Assembly: GCA_012728895.1 (NCBI GenBank)
Contig: JAAYEG010000046.1
Coordinates: 1 to 54,502, forward strand
DNA: 54,502 nt
Source of the DNA: Methanospirillum sp.
GTDB lineage: Archaea; Halobacteriota; Methanomicrobia; Methanomicrobiales; Methanospirillaceae
Direction of reading: 5' to 3'
The notes under the pieces were generated by a model. It did no database searches and was not told the DNA's origin. It worked only from the letters and a program-made list of their open reading frames with translations. The translations under genes were made by a program, and so were the position numbers. Positions 4,635 to 13,436 of the stretch are shown here, in pieces (position 1 is the stretch's first letter; each line of letters starts with the position of its first letter).

Positions 4635-6146
4635 TCAGCGTGCAGGCCGGTAAGGGACCACCTCGCCGCAGGACACGAGACGACCCTCTTCCAGGACCGA
4701 GACTGCCCCGTGACCGCCGGCCACAAGACAGCGGCGGCCCGACGAGGCGAGTCGTGCATCGGTCTCGACGACGAGGTCGAGCAGGTCGCGCCGCTCATTG
4801 CGTGCCAGCTCGCTGTCGACGTTGACCGAGGTGACCAGGTAGACAGCGATCGAGGCGTATTCGCGCCGCTCGGGGGTGAGACTGTCGAAGTTTATCAGGG
4901 CGTCGGCAGGGAAAAGGAGCCCGGCGTCGGGCTCGAAGAGGTAACACTGTCCTTGCATGTGCCCCCCGTGTCCCTCGAGCACCTCGAGGACAAGGTCACC
5001 GACTCTCAGACGATCAATGATTGCAAAACCGTGCCGAAAGCCGAGCGGTATTGTCGGGAAGGTCTCGACGTTCGTTGCCGGCGTGTAGGCCGAGAAGAGG
5101 TTTATCAGGGTCGTGTAAACCGCCTCGAGCACGGATCCCTCGGAGCGGGAGCCGTAAGCCCGCGAGAGATCCCGACCGATCTTGGCAGTGGCCGGGTGCA
5201 TCAAGGAGGGCGCACTGAATAGGCCGGAACCCCCGGAATGATCGGCGTCTGCGTGAGAGACCACGACCCGGGAGAGGCGTGAGAGGCTGGTGATCCCGCA
5301 TGCTTCGAACATTCGTAGACACTCGTCGTGGAAGCAGCCGAACCCAGTATCGAGCATCACCAGGTCGTCACCGGCATCGAGGAGATAGGTGTTGCCGCCG
5401 GCCGGGAGCTGGAAACTCCAGAGACGGACCCTCGGTGAGATCTGGAACTCCTGGATATCGGCGAAGAATCCGGGACCCTTCGTCTCTCGCAGTCTGCGAC
5501 CGGCGACGAGACAGGTCTCGAAGGTCTCTGCAGGGTCCCTTCCATGGTGGTGCAGTTCCTGGACCACGTGGTTCATGTCCTGAAGGAGGCAGAGCAGGAA
5601 GCGGTCGTCGGCATCTCCGATCAGTTCCCGGATCTGTTCGGCCAGCCGGACGTAGTATACCGTGTCGTCGAGGCGCCGTGTCGTCGGGTCATATTCCACC
5701 ACCTTGAGACGATACCGCGCCTTCAGGCGGTCGAGCAGCGTTTCGATGGCAGTGGACTCGGATAGGTTCAGGGTGAGCTCGACCCGTTCGGGGTGGACGC
5801 CGTGGTCGTCGAAATCGATCCCGACGATATTCGCGCGAGCGTTGGTGATCTCCTGGAGGAACTCGAAGAGGCCTCCGGGGCGGTGAGGAAGCCATACAGA
5901 GAGTGTCAGAAGCCGGAGCGTGGGCAGGCTGGTCTGGAGATATCCTATCCTTTTAAGCTCCCCGATGACGGAGGCGTACCCGTCATACGGCCCTGTCACC
6001 TCGAAGAAAACGGTGTTCCGGTCGATCCGGTGGTCGTACTGGATCCGATTGATATTGACCTCGTTGGCCCCGAGGAGCTCGGCGACCCGATGCAGGGCTC
6101 CGGGTTCGTCGGGGACGCGGGCGATGAACGAGTACCGTGCGGTCAA
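4635..6146 (-). CDS. ACT-ACT-metallo-beta-lactamase-fold fusion protein
   Basis: 503 aa. Residues about 3-70 (FIARVPDEPGALHRVAELL) and 78-152 (LSVWLPHRPGGLFEFLQEI) are two tandem ACT domains of the amino-acid-sensing type. A helical linker of about 90 residues follows. From about residue 245 the chain is a metallo-beta-lactamase fold, with the core strand NTYLLDAGDDLVMLDTGF and the metal motif HADADHSGG. The canonical motif is HxHxDH; here the second His is Asp. Later candidate ligands occur in GHGGHMQGQ, FPADALI and AGGHGAVS. The combination suggests a hydrolase gated by an amino-acid-like ligand, but the substrate is unknown. The start is TTG at 6146; TTTATTATTTATC near 6190-6177 could be its TATA box. 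It is monocistronic as far as can be seen. Confidence 0.8.
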   Translation of the reverse strand: MTARYSFIARVPDEPGALHRVAELLGANEVNINRIQYDHRIDRNTVFFEVTGPYDGYASVIGELKRIGYLQTSLPTLRLLTLSVWLPHRPGGLFEFLQEITNARANIVGIDFDDHGVHPERVELTLNLSESTAIETLLDRLKARYRLKVVEYDPTTRRLDDTVYYVRLAEQIRELIGDADDRFLLCLLQDMNHVVQELHHHGRDPAETFETCLVAGRRLRETKGPGFFADIQEFQISPRVRLWSFQLPAGGNTYLLDAGDDLVMLDTGFGCFHDECLRMFEACGITSLSRLSRVVVSHADADHSGGSGLFSAPSLMHPATAKIGRDLSRAYGSRSEGSVLEAVYTTLINLFSAYTPATNVETFPTIPLGFRHGFAIIDRLRVGDLVLEVLEGHGGHMQGQCYLFEPDAGLLFPADALINFDSLTPERREYASIAVYLVTSVNVDSELARNERRDLLDLVVETDARLASSGRRCLVAGGHGAVSVLEEGRLVSCGEVVPYRPAR

Positions 6147-6903: not shown

Positions 6904-7125
6904 TCTTCCCCTCCAGAACGACAGATTCATACTGTCGTACAGCGATTACTCGATCAGCATCCGCATGACCGGGCGAAGTGATCTTCACCGCTCCGATGAA
7001 TCGTCGCTTCGCATATTGTCATGGACATTTGATTGATATATTTATCACGACCTTTCGAATTATCCGTTGTTTTTCGAATTAACCATGAAAATTCCAATTC
7101 GTCCCTCATTTTAAGATTCGTCTGA

Positions 7126-7172
7126 TCGATTCGGATTCATCGAGGTGATTAATCTTAAATAGAGAAATATAG
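7126..7172 (+). promoter_or_regulatory. Promoter of the UbiA-type gene with candidate regulator site
   Basis: TATA-like CTTAAATAGA (7154-7163) is spaced for a start near 7186, ahead of the ATG at 7201. Immediately upstream is an inverted repeat TCGAT-N8-ATCGA (7126-7130 and 7139-7143) that includes TTCATCG (7136-7142), the half-site repeated in front of the FilR1-like regulator gene at 8155-8199. Confidence 0.5.
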
Positions 7173-7200
7173 ATTGCCGAGAAGCAATCACATTCACCTC

Positions 7201-8148
7201 ATGGTTTCGTACGTCGATTTCAACCCTTTTTCCGGTAGCGGGCAATCGTCGTTCTCTCTCCCAGGATTCGGCCGGGCCATCGAATCGATCTTCGACTTCC
7301 TGATCTTCTCTTCTCTTTTCGTCGGCATCGCCGGAATGGGCATGATCTACACCTCGTGCCTCCTACAGGGCATCGAGCCCATTCCTGCGATACTTGGTAT
7401 CATGCTCCTGGTACCGTTCTCGGTCTACAATATGAACCGCAAGACCGACGAGGAAGAGGACAGCGTTAATCGCCAGGACCGGTTTGCGTTCACCAAGCGT
7501 TTTGAAAAACCCCTGCTAATCGGGGCCCTCGCTGCGTACGCGATCGCTGTTCTGGTCGCATTCCCCTACGGCCCTGCCGCGATTCTAATCACGCTCGTAC
7601 CTCTCCTGGCCGGCGTCCTCTACAGCATGCCGGTTCTTCCGTCAGGATTCGGATACCGGCGCCTCAAGGAGATCCCGGTGATGAAGAACCTGGTGGTGGG
7701 CGGATCGTGGTCCGCCATCCTCGTGATCCTTCCCTGTCTGACAGCAGGCCGACCGATCACAGGAGAGACCGTTCTCTGCCTTCTCTTCTTCTTCACCTAC
7801 GCGTTCATCGCCTCCGCGCTGCCCGACATGCGGGACAGGGAAGGGGACGAACGGGCAGGCGTGAGAACTATTCCGGTCCTGATCGGGGTCGACAGGACGA
7901 AGAGAGTGCTGGGGGCCATGAACTGGACGACTGCACTCATGGTGGTCGCCTCCGGACTCTGCGCGATCATCACGCCCCTGATCGCCGTCCTGTACGCGGG
8001 AGCACATGTCTACACCCAGTGCTGTATCACCTCGTTCGGTCGGATAGGTAAGAAGGATCTCATCTGCGACCTCCTTTCCGACGGACAGTTCCTGATCATA
8101 GGCGCAGCCTTGTTCCTGGTTCAGGCACTATTCCCGCTCTGCCTGTAG
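7201..8148 (+). CDS. UbiA-family prenyltransferase, integral membrane
   Basis: 315 aa from ATG 7201; a TTG 27 bases upstream is in frame but would precede the predicted transcript start. The family transfers a polyprenyl chain to an acceptor in the membrane. The two Asp-rich motifs are present: NMNRKTDEEEDSVN (N/D-x-x-x-D type) and DMRDREGDERAG. About seven to nine hydrophobic segments are visible, for example FLIFSSLFVGIAGMGMIYTS, LLIGALAAYAIAVLVAF and ILITLVPLLAGVLYSM. The acceptor cannot be told from sequence; the candidates are respiratory quinone-like or lipid precursors. The following gene is a regulator, and the two may be functionally linked through shared operator half-sites. Confidence 0.85.
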   Translation: MVSYVDFNPFSGSGQSSFSLPGFGRAIESIFDFLIFSSLFVGIAGMGMIYTSCLLQGIEPIPAILGIMLLVPFSVYNMNRKTDEEEDSVNRQDRFAFTKRFEKPLLIGALAAYAIAVLVAFPYGPAAILITLVPLLAGVLYSMPVLPSGFGYRRLKEIPVMKNLVVGGSWSAILVILPCLTAGRPITGETVLCLLFFFTYAFIASALPDMRDREGDERAGVRTIPVLIGVDRTKRVLGAMNWTTALMVVASGLCAIITPLIAVLYAGAHVYTQCCITSFGRIGKKDLICDLLSDGQFLIIGAALFLVQALFPLCL

Positions 8149-8154
8149 AGAGGG

Positions 8155-8199
8155 CGATGAAGGTTCATCGGATCGATGAACTTTCATTCCTCCGATGAA
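8155..8199 (+). promoter_or_regulatory. Array of four CGATGAA/TTCATCG half-sites (operator) before the FilR1-like gene
   Basis: Within 45 bp lie CGATGAA (8155-8161), TTCATCG (8164-8170), CGATGAA (8174-8180) and CGATGAA (8193-8199). The first two form a perfect palindrome with a 2 bp spacer. The second and third form another with a 3 bp spacer, extended by one base on each side (GTTCATCG-GAT-CGATGAAC). The array is 69-113 bp before the regulator ATG. Single half-sites also occur at 6994-7000 and 7136-7142. Confidence 0.6.
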
Positions 8200-8267
8200 A
8201 AAAAGCAAAAGACTGATATCGTGAAGACACCCAAGAATCATTAGCAGAAAAATCGGCAGGGGGCCCG

Positions 8268-9083
8268 ATGAACAAACTGGAAGTCTTCGAACAGCACAAC
8301 AAGGTGATCCAGTCGATCTACGGGTCGAGGCTGTTGGTGCAGATCCTGCTCTCGGTCGAGGAGGGGGGGACACCGCTCTCGAAGCTCCGCGAGATCACCG
8401 GGAGCACCTCACAGGCTCTTATTCCGAAGATCCGGAAGCTCGAGAACCTTGCCCTTGTCGAATCAAGGGGCGCCGGATACGGGCCGACCATCTTCGGGAG
8501 CCTCGTCGCGAGGAAGATCGGAGATTTCTCGCTGACGATGGGCACGCTCTCGACCCACCTCAAGTTCTGGGGAGATCACGACATCTCCACGATCCCCGAG
8601 CCGTTCCTCGATCGCATCGGGAGTCTCTTGAACGCCGAGATCGTGTACGATACCGGCACCGATATCATGCATGTGTATCACTCCTATCTTCAGCTGATCA
8701 GCGAGGCTGAGGAGATACTCGGCGTGTCGGCGGTCATGAGCCCCGGGCTCGCCCAGGGCCTCGGCGAGCGGGTGATCAGCGGGATCCCCGTGGAACTGCT
8801 CGTCAACTCGTCGACCCTCTCTCTCCTCGAGAAGGAACCGTACAGCACCCAGATGAATGCCCTGGCCAGTTACGACAACTTCCGCGTGTGGTTGACCGAT
8901 CGCCCGATCGGATTCGGTCTGACCGTGACCGACTCCTGCATATCGCTCGGTTTCTACAAGCGGGATGCCCCGATCTACGATAGCTCCACCGATCTCTTCT
9001 CGCGAGACGCGTCCGCCCTCGCCTGGGGGAGGGAGCTCTTCGATTACCTGCGCTCCGAGTCCGTCCAGTTCACCGGCACCTGA
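8268..9083 (+). CDS. FilR1-like transcriptional regulator (wHTH plus methanogenesis-regulator domain)
   Basis: 271 aa. The N-terminal winged HTH (about residues 18-90; SRLLVQILLSVEEGGTPLSK, TGSTSQALIPKIRKLENLAL) is followed by a domain of about 170 residues. That part resembles the middle domain of FilR1 / methanogenesis regulatory proteins (DUF1724), including the stretch around EEILGVSAVMSPGLAQGL and PVELLVNSSTL. FilR1-type proteins regulate methanogenesis or growth-mode genes in methanogens. The position behind the UbiA-type gene and the palindromic array at 8155-8199 suggest autoregulation. The start is the ATG after GGCAGGGGGCCCG. Cytoplasmic; no membrane segment. Confidence 0.82.
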   Translation: MNKLEVFEQHNKVIQSIYGSRLLVQILLSVEEGGTPLSKLREITGSTSQALIPKIRKLENLALVESRGAGYGPTIFGSLVARKIGDFSLTMGTLSTHLKFWGDHDISTIPEPFLDRIGSLLNAEIVYDTGTDIMHVYHSYLQLISEAEEILGVSAVMSPGLAQGLGERVISGIPVELLVNSSTLSLLEKEPYSTQMNALASYDNFRVWLTDRPIGFGLTVTDSCISLGFYKRDAPIYDSSTDLFSRDASALAWGRELFDYLRSESVQFTGT

Positions 9084-10669: not shown

Positions 10670-12166
10670 CTATGCGATGAGCCCGGCAAGCACGTAGTAA
10701 TTACTCACGGCGTCAGCACCGAATGCGTCCGAAGACTGGAGCCCCGCAAAGAGATTCATCGCCTGGATCGCCTCGTTTTTAAAGCCTGTCTCGTCACCCA
10801 TTGACCGGGCAAGGTATGCAAGCGACACCCGGTGCCACCCGGTGGCGTACGTCGAGAACTCGCCCATGTAACTGGCCTTCTTATTGAGCACCGGGACGAT
10901 CCCGGCAGTGTACGCCGTGCCGTCTCCGAACTCGGTGCCGGCGAACGAGGCCGATTGGAGCGTGGTCGTCGCCCTGTTGAAGAGAACCTGCGAGTTACTG
11001 AAGATGATCGAGGAAGCCTCGAGCGATCCCACGGCCTTTCGGTAGTCCCCGTCGTTCATCTGCACACGGCCCATGCTGTAGACGTTCGCGCCATCGTACA
11101 TCGTGACCGCGGCATCGGCGAGATCGATATATGCGGTCGATATCGTTCTTATCAGGGCTAGGTTAGCCGTATTCGGCGGATCGTTCACCGCCCCGGCCCA
11201 GTTCAGGGCATTCGTGTACTCGATTCGTGCCTGCTCCAGGTCCTTTCGAATCAGCACCGGGTCGCTCGCACCCCAGGCGCGGCTCCATGCGACAGAACCG
11301 GCATCGTAGAACTCCCTGGCCTGAGCATAGGTCGCGCCGCTGGGCGGGATGACAGCGATGGTCGAGATGATCGATGGCTCCGCCGGTGTGGTCGTCACAG
11401 GGACGGTCGTCGCCGTGCTGGTCGGCGGTGTATCTCCGAGATACCTGGAAAGGGCACTGTACCAGTTCTTGGCGATCTTCTTCTCACCGCTCTCGTTCGG
11501 ATGGACGAAATCGGGGGCCTGGTTGTCCTCCTTCCCGTTGTAGCCGTAGTAGTGGTCGACCACGATCACCGGCGACCCCGCTCTCGAGGTCCGGTCCGCG
11601 ATCCGCAGGATCTCCTGGTTCAGGTCGATCAGGGACTGCCGGTAGTAACTGGTCGGGGGGAGAGTCCCGATGAAGACGGTCACCGCCGGGTTCTTCTGCC
11701 GGAGCACCGTGATTATCTTTTCGATGTTGGTGGATGACTCGTTGGTGGGTACGCCGCGCAGCACGTCGTTCATACCGATCAGGAGCAGCACCACGTCGTA
11801 GTCGTAGCCCCTGATCCACGTTGCGAGAGAGCCCGGTTCCCAGCGGTCGTCCTCGACGCCGTGCAGGATCTCGTCGCTGGAGTATCCACCGTGTCCCTCG
11901 TTGTCCTGGTCGAAACTGAATCTCGTAAAGTTCGGCATTCTCCAAGAGCCGACGAAGTCGACATCGTACCCGTTCTCGGCCAGGTCGTTCCAGAGCCAGT
12001 AGCGGTAAGTCGGATGCTTGGCTTCCTCGGCAGTCGAGACCCCTCCCTTCGTGATGGAGTCCCCGAGAGGCATGACCTTGACGGTTCCTGAAACGGCCAT
12101 CACTCCAAGGGCAGAGAAGGTCAGGAGTACGATGCAGCACAGGATTCCCAGATGCTCTTTTCTCAT
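10670..12166 (-). CDS. Secreted SGNH/GDSL-family esterase with C-terminal helical domain
   Basis: 498 aa from ATG 12166, which follows a GGGGAG ribosome-binding site; the frame stays open further upstream. The N-terminus is a signal peptide (MRKEHLGILCCIVLLTFSAL). The catalytic SGNH blocks are in order: GDSITKG (nucleophile Ser), a Gly block at GHGGYSSDEI, GMND (Asn block) and DFVHPNESG (Asp/His pair). A Thr/Pro-rich linker (TSTATTVPVTTTP) leads to a second, helical domain of about 230 residues of unknown function. The protein probably works outside the cell on acyl esters, perhaps acetylated glycans. The minus-strand element GCTTAAAACTG near 12230 may be its TATA box. Confidence 0.85.
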   Translation of the reverse strand: MRKEHLGILCCIVLLTFSALGVMAVSGTVKVMPLGDSITKGGVSTAEEAKHPTYRYWLWNDLAENGYDVDFVGSWRMPNFTRFSFDQDNEGHGGYSSDEILHGVEDDRWEPGSLATWIRGYDYDVVLLLIGMNDVLRGVPTNESSTNIEKIITVLRQKNPAVTVFIGTLPPTSYYRQSLIDLNQEILRIADRTSRAGSPVIVVDHYYGYNGKEDNQAPDFVHPNESGEKKIAKNWYSALSRYLGDTPPTSTATTVPVTTTPAEPSIISTIAVIPPSGATYAQAREFYDAGSVAWSRAWGASDPVLIRKDLEQARIEYTNALNWAGAVNDPPNTANLALIRTISTAYIDLADAAVTMYDGANVYSMGRVQMNDGDYRKAVGSLEASSIIFSNSQVLFNRATTTLQSASFAGTEFGDGTAYTAGIVPVLNKKASYMGEFSTYATGWHRVSLAYLARSMGDETGFKNEAIQAMNLFAGLQSSDAFGADAVSNYYVLAGLIA

Positions 12167-13436
12167 ACAACTCCCCGCAGGATCATGAAGATCAGTGGTA
12201 TGTACAGATTTTGTGTGGGCAGTTTTAAGCATACCGGACAGGGGCAACGACAGGCCGACGCATTATCGTCTATCTCAGTGACAGGAATGCTAACGCCGGT
12301 CCATTTCACACCCGCCTGATCGTTTTAACATACAGACGGCGACGTCCTATTTCCTGGTCCCGGTCGATCGTCACAGACCCGTGATACGGACCCGGTCTGG
12401 TTGAGAGAGGATAGGTGTCGTATCCGGCCTGCCCCCCGCCCGGGAAGGATAGAAATCGGGCTGCGGGGCGACCGGCTCCAGGATCGCCCTGCCGATTCGA
12501 TCAACCCCCGGAGGGTTCCGACGACAACCGGACAGAAAGCGCGCGGGGAGGGGGTTTGCAGGTGAACGGGCAGATTCCCGTGCCTCAGACCCGTTTGTTA
12601 ATATGCCCGGTCCTTCATTCGAAGGCAACCACCCTCTCGCGATTCCCGGACATCGTCAACGCTGATGCTTCCCTGTTCCTCCGGACGAACCTGCGCCGGG
12701 ATCGTCACGAGGCATAGTCAATGGGGCAAATGCGACCCGAGCCCGGCGGGGTTCGACCATCTTCGGCCACTGCCGGCATCCCGGTGTGGATCGAAGGGTC
12801 AATATCGACGTTATCTTCCGAACCAAATCGATAGGAGGTGCCTTTCTGCGCACTCGATCAGGATCCTGGCCCCCACCGCCGCGTTTTCCGTCGTTAAACT
12901 CGAGATGGCTGTCTATCTCCGCCCGCGAAACAGGAGAGGGGCTCGTCCGTTCCCCGCACCGGCGGCATGGACCCAGACGAAGTACAACCCGCTCGCGAAT
13001 TCTCAGGCCCCTGAGCCCGTTACGCCAGGAGGCCTGTCGCCGATCCGCGGAAGGGTGCCTGAATCCAGAAGGGGGATACCTGCAGTCTTCGCTGGCTCCG
13101 GAAAGCGGCGGCGGGTGAGAACGGGTCCCCTCAGCCGTCCCCCGGAACGTTGTATGCCCTTCAGACGGGGAATCGCCCCCGGGGACAGCGGGCCTCCGGT
13201 GGAAAGATGTGGCGTCCTGCCGGAATATATTACGGGTTCGGGATCGGATCCTGACGGCGGTTCACGTCGGTCTGATAGCCAGGTCTCCGTGACCCGCGCG
13301 GTTCGTTTTTTTCGACTCGAATTCTCTCTCGGAGGTAATTGCTCCGGCAGGGTGACCGCGCCCTCTATCCGCCGCGCGCTCCACACCCAGGCACGATACG
13401 TCAGTTTGAATGGCATTGCGCTCCATTCATGTATGG
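12167..13436. other. 1.27 kb without convincing genes
   Basis: Apart from the promoter region of the esterase gene (about 12200-12240), I see no gene, RNA or clear repeat. Frames up to 272 codons exist (12665-13483, +), but their Arg/Pro/Ser-rich composition is that of noncoding GC-rich DNA and one runs into the next gene. Confidence 0.45.

Follow-up and report, generated by a model that had tools for sequence, protein, structure and literature searches.

A 19-bp operator lattice and a probable local regulon of a FilR1_middle regulator and a UbiA-family prenyltransferase in Methanospirillum

A probable local regulon

In the 54,502-nt stretch of Methanospirillum sp. DNA analysed here (contig JAAYEG010000046.1; hereafter the window), positions 8155-8199 very probably constitute the operator of the adjacent FilR1_middle, apparently TrmB-like regulator, which would form a local autoregulated regulon with a UbiA-family prenyltransferase gene (Table 1). 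What the sequence shows directly is a conserved lattice of half-sites that is unique in the genome and co-occurs with the regulator. In a local regulon, the regulator's promoter should share its operator with a neighbouring gene, and this arrangement was found in the regulator's own genome and in the orthologues of its genus. Autoregulation and control of the prenyltransferase, both of which had been proposed in an initial annotation of this DNA, are well supported by phylogenetic footprints.

Table 1. Features of the operator region in the window
Feature	Position	Strand	Description	Support
Conserved divergent gene, 142 aa	6502-6930	-		73% identical in G049, 65% in G020
Possible operator	6984-7000		TTCACCG-CTC-CGATGAA; leader of divergent gene	E 1 in window scan
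Degenerate lattice	7041-7070		TTTATCA...TTATCCG, 19 bp apart; overlaps conserved TATTTATCACG between divergent genes	E 1.4
UbiA-promoter operator	7117-7152		degenerate unit 7117-7123, 19 bp before TTCATCG-AGG-TGATTAA (7136-7152)	E 0.003 genome-wide
TATA-like TTAAATAG, UbiA promoter	7155-7162	+	directly 3' of operator	read by eye
UbiA-family prenyltransferase, 315 aa	7201-8148	+		Pfam UbiA E 1e-22
Operator unit 1	8155-8170		CGATGAA-GG-TTCATCG = CGATGAAGGTTCATCG, perfect inverted repeat, spacer 2	profile match 8153-8187, E 4e-4 genome-wide
Everted pair	8164-8180		TTCATCG-GAT-CGATGAA = TTCATCGGATCGATGAA, perfect palindrome, spacer 3	
Operator unit 2	8174-8189		CGATGAA-CT-TTCATTC, with 2 mismatches; 19 bp downstream of unit 1	
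Operator unit 3	8193-8199	+	left half-site alone; 19 bp downstream of unit 2	
Regulator, 271 aa	8268-9083	+	wHTH ~21-73, long helix, FilR1_middle 137-263	E 7e-27

The operator array and the neighbouring promoters

The initial annotation had described four CGATGAA half-sites within 45 bp as two overlapping perfect palindromes with spacers of 2 and 3 bp. The half-sites and palindromes lie exactly where they were placed; the description is incomplete, in that the array is a three-unit lattice with a 19-bp period. Copies of CGATGAA start at 8155 (+), 8164 (-), 8174 (+) and 8193 (+), and again at 6994 (+) and 7136 (-), and the layout of the array is CGATGAA-GG-TTCATCG / GAT / CGATGAA-CT-TTCATTC / CTC / CGATGAA-AAAAA. 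The plus-strand copies (8155, 8174, 8193) follow one another at intervals of exactly 19 bp, and when the array is shifted against itself by 19, 19 of 26 positions agree, with nothing comparable at other shifts between 5 and 25. Unit 3 continues into an A-rich, TATA-like stretch at approximately 8200-8215. The inverted form, a 16-bp palindrome at 8155-8170, has its sole occurrence in the 2.28-Mb genome here, and the everted form likewise occurs once, within the array. An extra CGATGAA copy at 8266-8272 overlaps the start codon of the regulator (ATGAAC); it was therefore set aside as a part of the operator and is probably due to chance.

The copies that had been reported as single half-sites at 7136-7142 and 6994-7000 are both present, although neither stands alone. 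At the UbiA promoter, a second half-site, TGATTAA, accompanies the copy at 7136 and had been missed, and a genome-wide search for GATGAA repeats at 19 bp with one mismatch allowed returned not only the array but also a match on the minus strand at the UbiA promoter (7117-7141). The copy at 6994 is paired with TTCACCG (6984-6990), which departs from the half-site by one mismatch, and the counterpart of this site in G049 is TTCACCTGTGCGATGAA. The degenerate unit pair at 7041-7070 spans TTTATCACG, and orthologues carry TTTATCACGACCTTTCGAGTTCATCA at the counterpart of this element.

The enzyme is a clear member of the UbiA family (PF01040) and scores under the cut-off of every NCBIfam equivalog. 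The 142-aa protein encoded divergently has no family match in Pfam or NCBIfam; its gene, for which other genera have remote matches lying divergent to UbiA, is real and conserved, as judged by comparison with relatives. The earlier proposal that the divergent gene is also controlled is less well supported than control of the other two genes, its operator copies being degenerate. Adjoining the cluster, the window encodes a protein in which two ACT domains are joined to a metallo-beta-lactamase domain (4635-6146, minus strand). At 10670-12247 (minus strand) lies an ORF that by eye resembles a secreted SGNH/GDSL-type hydrolase (motif GDSITKGG), and a similar ORF is found near the regulator in G020 (L097:4137-5243).

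Conservation and distribution of the operator

The UbiA upstream regions of 23 related loci, aligned with the window's own sequence left out, share a gap-free 63-bp block, TTTATCACGG..TTTCA.ATTCATCGCTGCGATKAACATTCATCATCA.AATGAATGTTAAC, which contains 1.21 bits per column compared with 0.33 outside it. The block profile shows autocorrelation peaks at shifts of 19 and 38 bp and no others, its dyad centres are spaced by 9.5 bp, and at locus L008 an insertion of exactly 19 bp adds one further unit. Where the gene order is reversed, with the regulator preceding UbiA (L030, L031), the operator is still located at UbiA. Recurrence of the palindromes upstream of orthologues had been named as a check on the proposal, and they do recur there: the operator is conserved across about 12 genera. 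Within the genus of the window, the three orthologues having the regulator (L003-L005) possess GATGAA repeats at the same position before it, and TTCATCGGATCGATGAA or a near copy precedes UbiA, the 17-mer being identical in G005 and G049. In other genera, the array spans from the TATA-like element to approximately 25-35 bp before the UbiA start codon, and in most of them it is present at UbiA only, with none at the regulator. Autoregulation via an array of the regulator's own is thus limited to the genus of the window, G002 and genus g15. In genera without an array there, the regulator promoter carries a conserved GATCGAATAACATATTT (L006, L007, L011, L013, L016-L018).

A scan of the 2.28-Mb genome with a sequence-only profile of the 63-bp block, trained without the window sequence, gave five matches up to E 5, all of them at 7041-8199. 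Orthologues of the regulator occur in 53 of 100 genomes of the family at E<=0.001 (41 at E<1e-50). The regulator is present in all 35 of those 100 genomes that contain this UbiA (Fisher p 4e-21), and off-locus operators (E<1e-3) are found in 18 of the 41 genomes with the regulator compared with 3 of the 59 without it (p 6e-6), p-values that overstate independence because these genomes belong to one family and share ancestry. The three genomes with an operator but no detected close regulator (G071, G075 and G079) are incomplete assemblies of genus g15 (64-77% complete). Members of the window's genus that lack the regulator (G028, G036 and G043) also lack the operator, and the overall pattern, conservation upstream of orthologues and absence where the regulator is absent, is that expected of a local regulon. 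Where the regulator occurs without UbiA, a site persists immediately 3' of its gene (G010, G022 and G030 of g10; G039 of g12), and in g15 tandem copies of the regulator have sites upstream (G063, G047 and G067).

In g10, which is without UbiA, two convergent genes flank a perfect operator lattice (L147:2316-2356; also L148 and L149) on the downstream side of the regulator. This site has no obvious target, which counts against the proposed regulon, and it may be a relic or belong to an unannotated small gene.

Related genera contain extra arrays away from the UbiA cluster, with up to 17 raw matches per genome (L139, L140, L141, L144, L154, L151, L096, L104 and L105). The genes next to them encode AIM24-like proteins, response regulators and proteins that are uncharacterised and often secreted or membrane-bound; an enrichment of off-locus targets in secreted proteins was rejected (11/25 vs. 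35/99, p 0.49). Separately, a FilR1_middle-type regulator and a more distantly related UbiA-type gene face each other in convergent orientation at L103 (G027:C1:555383-556928), and a similar distant pair is present in G003, G004, G038, G048, G092, G095 and G097. The pairing of enzyme and regulator therefore recurs in a second lineage.

The regulator protein

The 271-aa regulator is the single FilR1_middle (PF08350) protein in this genome, that of a methanogen in which McrA is present, and it scores 94.4 bits against a family cut-off of 27. No receiver domain was matched in the protein, which stops 8 residues past the middle domain; the earlier label "FilR1-like" thus applies to its HTH and middle domain and does not extend to a receiver domain. 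A conserved operator leads one to expect a near-invariant recognition domain, and the HTH segment LSxLREVTGSTSQALIPKIRxLE is indeed nearly invariant among 23 orthologues that are 42-75% identical to the window protein.

A predicted model of the regulator (mean pLDDT 82, from a four-sequence alignment) comprises a winged HTH (21-73), a long helix (75-103) and an alpha/beta domain. The best solved folds for this model in Foldseek were TrmBL2, a chromatin protein that coats DNA, and TrmB, a sugar sensor mainly known as a repressor of sugar genes, followed by the phospholipase D (PLD) superfamily. The match to TrmBL2 has an E of 1.6e-10, a TM-score of about 0.4 and a high rmsd; the low TM-score together with the high rmsd implies that the domains match while their arrangement differs. 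The regulator is thus predicted to fold most like TrmBL2 and TrmB.

Mode of action and rival explanations

The preferred model of a local autoregulated regulon may be set out as follows. The half-sites GATGAA / TTCATC, with GATTAA / TTAATC tolerated, alternate every ~9.5 bp, giving a two-fold unit every 19 bp, and winged-helix dimers would occupy neighbouring units, probably cooperatively. One array would control the regulator's own gene, the second UbiA, and the degenerate copies the 142-aa gene. Because they abut or overlap BRE/TATA elements, the arrays, once occupied, would hinder the assembly of transcription factors or, with lower probability, help it. The regulator may mainly repress by blocking TBP/TFB or RNA polymerase in the BRE/TATA/start region, and a ligand of the C-terminal domain would relieve this repression. 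Repression is the likelier mode of action, held with less assurance than the regulon itself. Both arrays in the window lie just upstream of TATA-like boxes, which were read by eye, and such a placement would suit an activator as well. It is conceivable, with an appreciable though minor chance, that the same regulator activates by recruiting TFB/TBP from just upstream of BRE/TATA: the window arrays end right before the TATA-like boxes (7155-7162; ~8200-8215), FilR1 has been reported to up-regulate its targets, and CsmR sites upstream of BRE/TATA were interpreted as activating. However, the arrays of other genera reach to within ~25-35 bp of the UbiA start, where a bound protein more likely blocks, and TrmB, which together with TrmBL2 is the closest class of solved folds, acts chiefly in repression.

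That a different DNA-binding protein uses the operator, the FilR1-like gene being a neighbour or co-target, is improbable; the sites in the three genomes without a detected close regulator would fit it, but the incompleteness of those g15 assemblies, the persistence of the operator with the regulator in UbiA-less genomes and the co-occurrence tests argue for the regulator-operator pairing. A function as RNA hairpins in the mRNA leaders of UbiA and the regulator is very unlikely. Although TTCATCGCTGCGATGAA can form a 7-bp hairpin and 91% of cells in the helix pair, 7 of 23 sequences disrupt the central pair, the 2-base spacers of the inverted units cannot form RNA loops, and the window arrays are upstream of the TATA-like boxes; the covariation test also disfavours an RNA leader element, covariation being no better than shuffled (74/500), with no stem-preserving compensatory signal. 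Finally, CGATGAA is about three times as frequent in the window as expected (24 observed vs. 8.7; none of 100 shuffles was as high), and this background had been named in the initial annotation as a possible source of the cluster. Yet four copies per 45 bp appeared in none of 60 Markov sequences, in which the maximum of 2 was reached once. A chance cluster of a common heptamer has a negligible probability in view of the conservation across genera, the 19-bp period and the genome-wide uniqueness, and phylogenetic footprinting refutes it.

Implications

Regulators of the FilR1_middle family (DUF1724, COG4742, PF08350) are largely uncharacterised in the literature. A defined, conserved operator and a ready target gene make the DNA recognition and the signal of this family, as well as the function of the orphan UbiA, directly testable, and the 19-bp lattice of alternating half-sites provides a checkable prediction of how the protein assembles on DNA. 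One might further speculate, as a doubtful idea, that the regulator is a membrane-lipid sensor, whose PLD-like domain would read a prenyl or polar-lipid intermediate of the paired UbiA and which would polymerise along the 19-bp lattice in the manner of TrmBL2. If so, polymerisation of a lipid sensor would give a steep switch on membrane composition.

Comparison with known systems

No description of this operator and no methanogen system of regulator, operator and prenyltransferase were found in the literature searched, most subscription journals being outside its scope; a separate search for HVO_A0261 also returned nothing. The regulator-operator pair is new and of a known kind, that of the FilR1_middle regulators, and the operator is apparently undescribed. 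CsmR is excluded as a counterpart, being an Lrp/AsnC-type protein with another motif. With TrmB and TrmBL2 (PDB 3qph, 5bpd), the predicted model appears to share the wHTH, the connecting helix and the PLD-like domain; it differs in its low identity (14%), in domain orientation and in that the 271-aa protein has no match to the Pfam TrmB domain.

FilR1 of Methanosaeta (Methanothrix) harundinacea binds its own promoter in EMSA, indicating autoregulation, and its targets are methanogenesis genes (PMC3991700). That study gives no operator motif, the terms "motif" and "palindrom" being absent from its text (PMC3991700). Both FilR1 and the window regulator are methanogen proteins with a wHTH and a FilR1_middle domain. 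By contrast, FilR1 carries a receiver domain at its C terminus and has FilI as its partner kinase, whereas the window protein has no further domain beyond the middle one.
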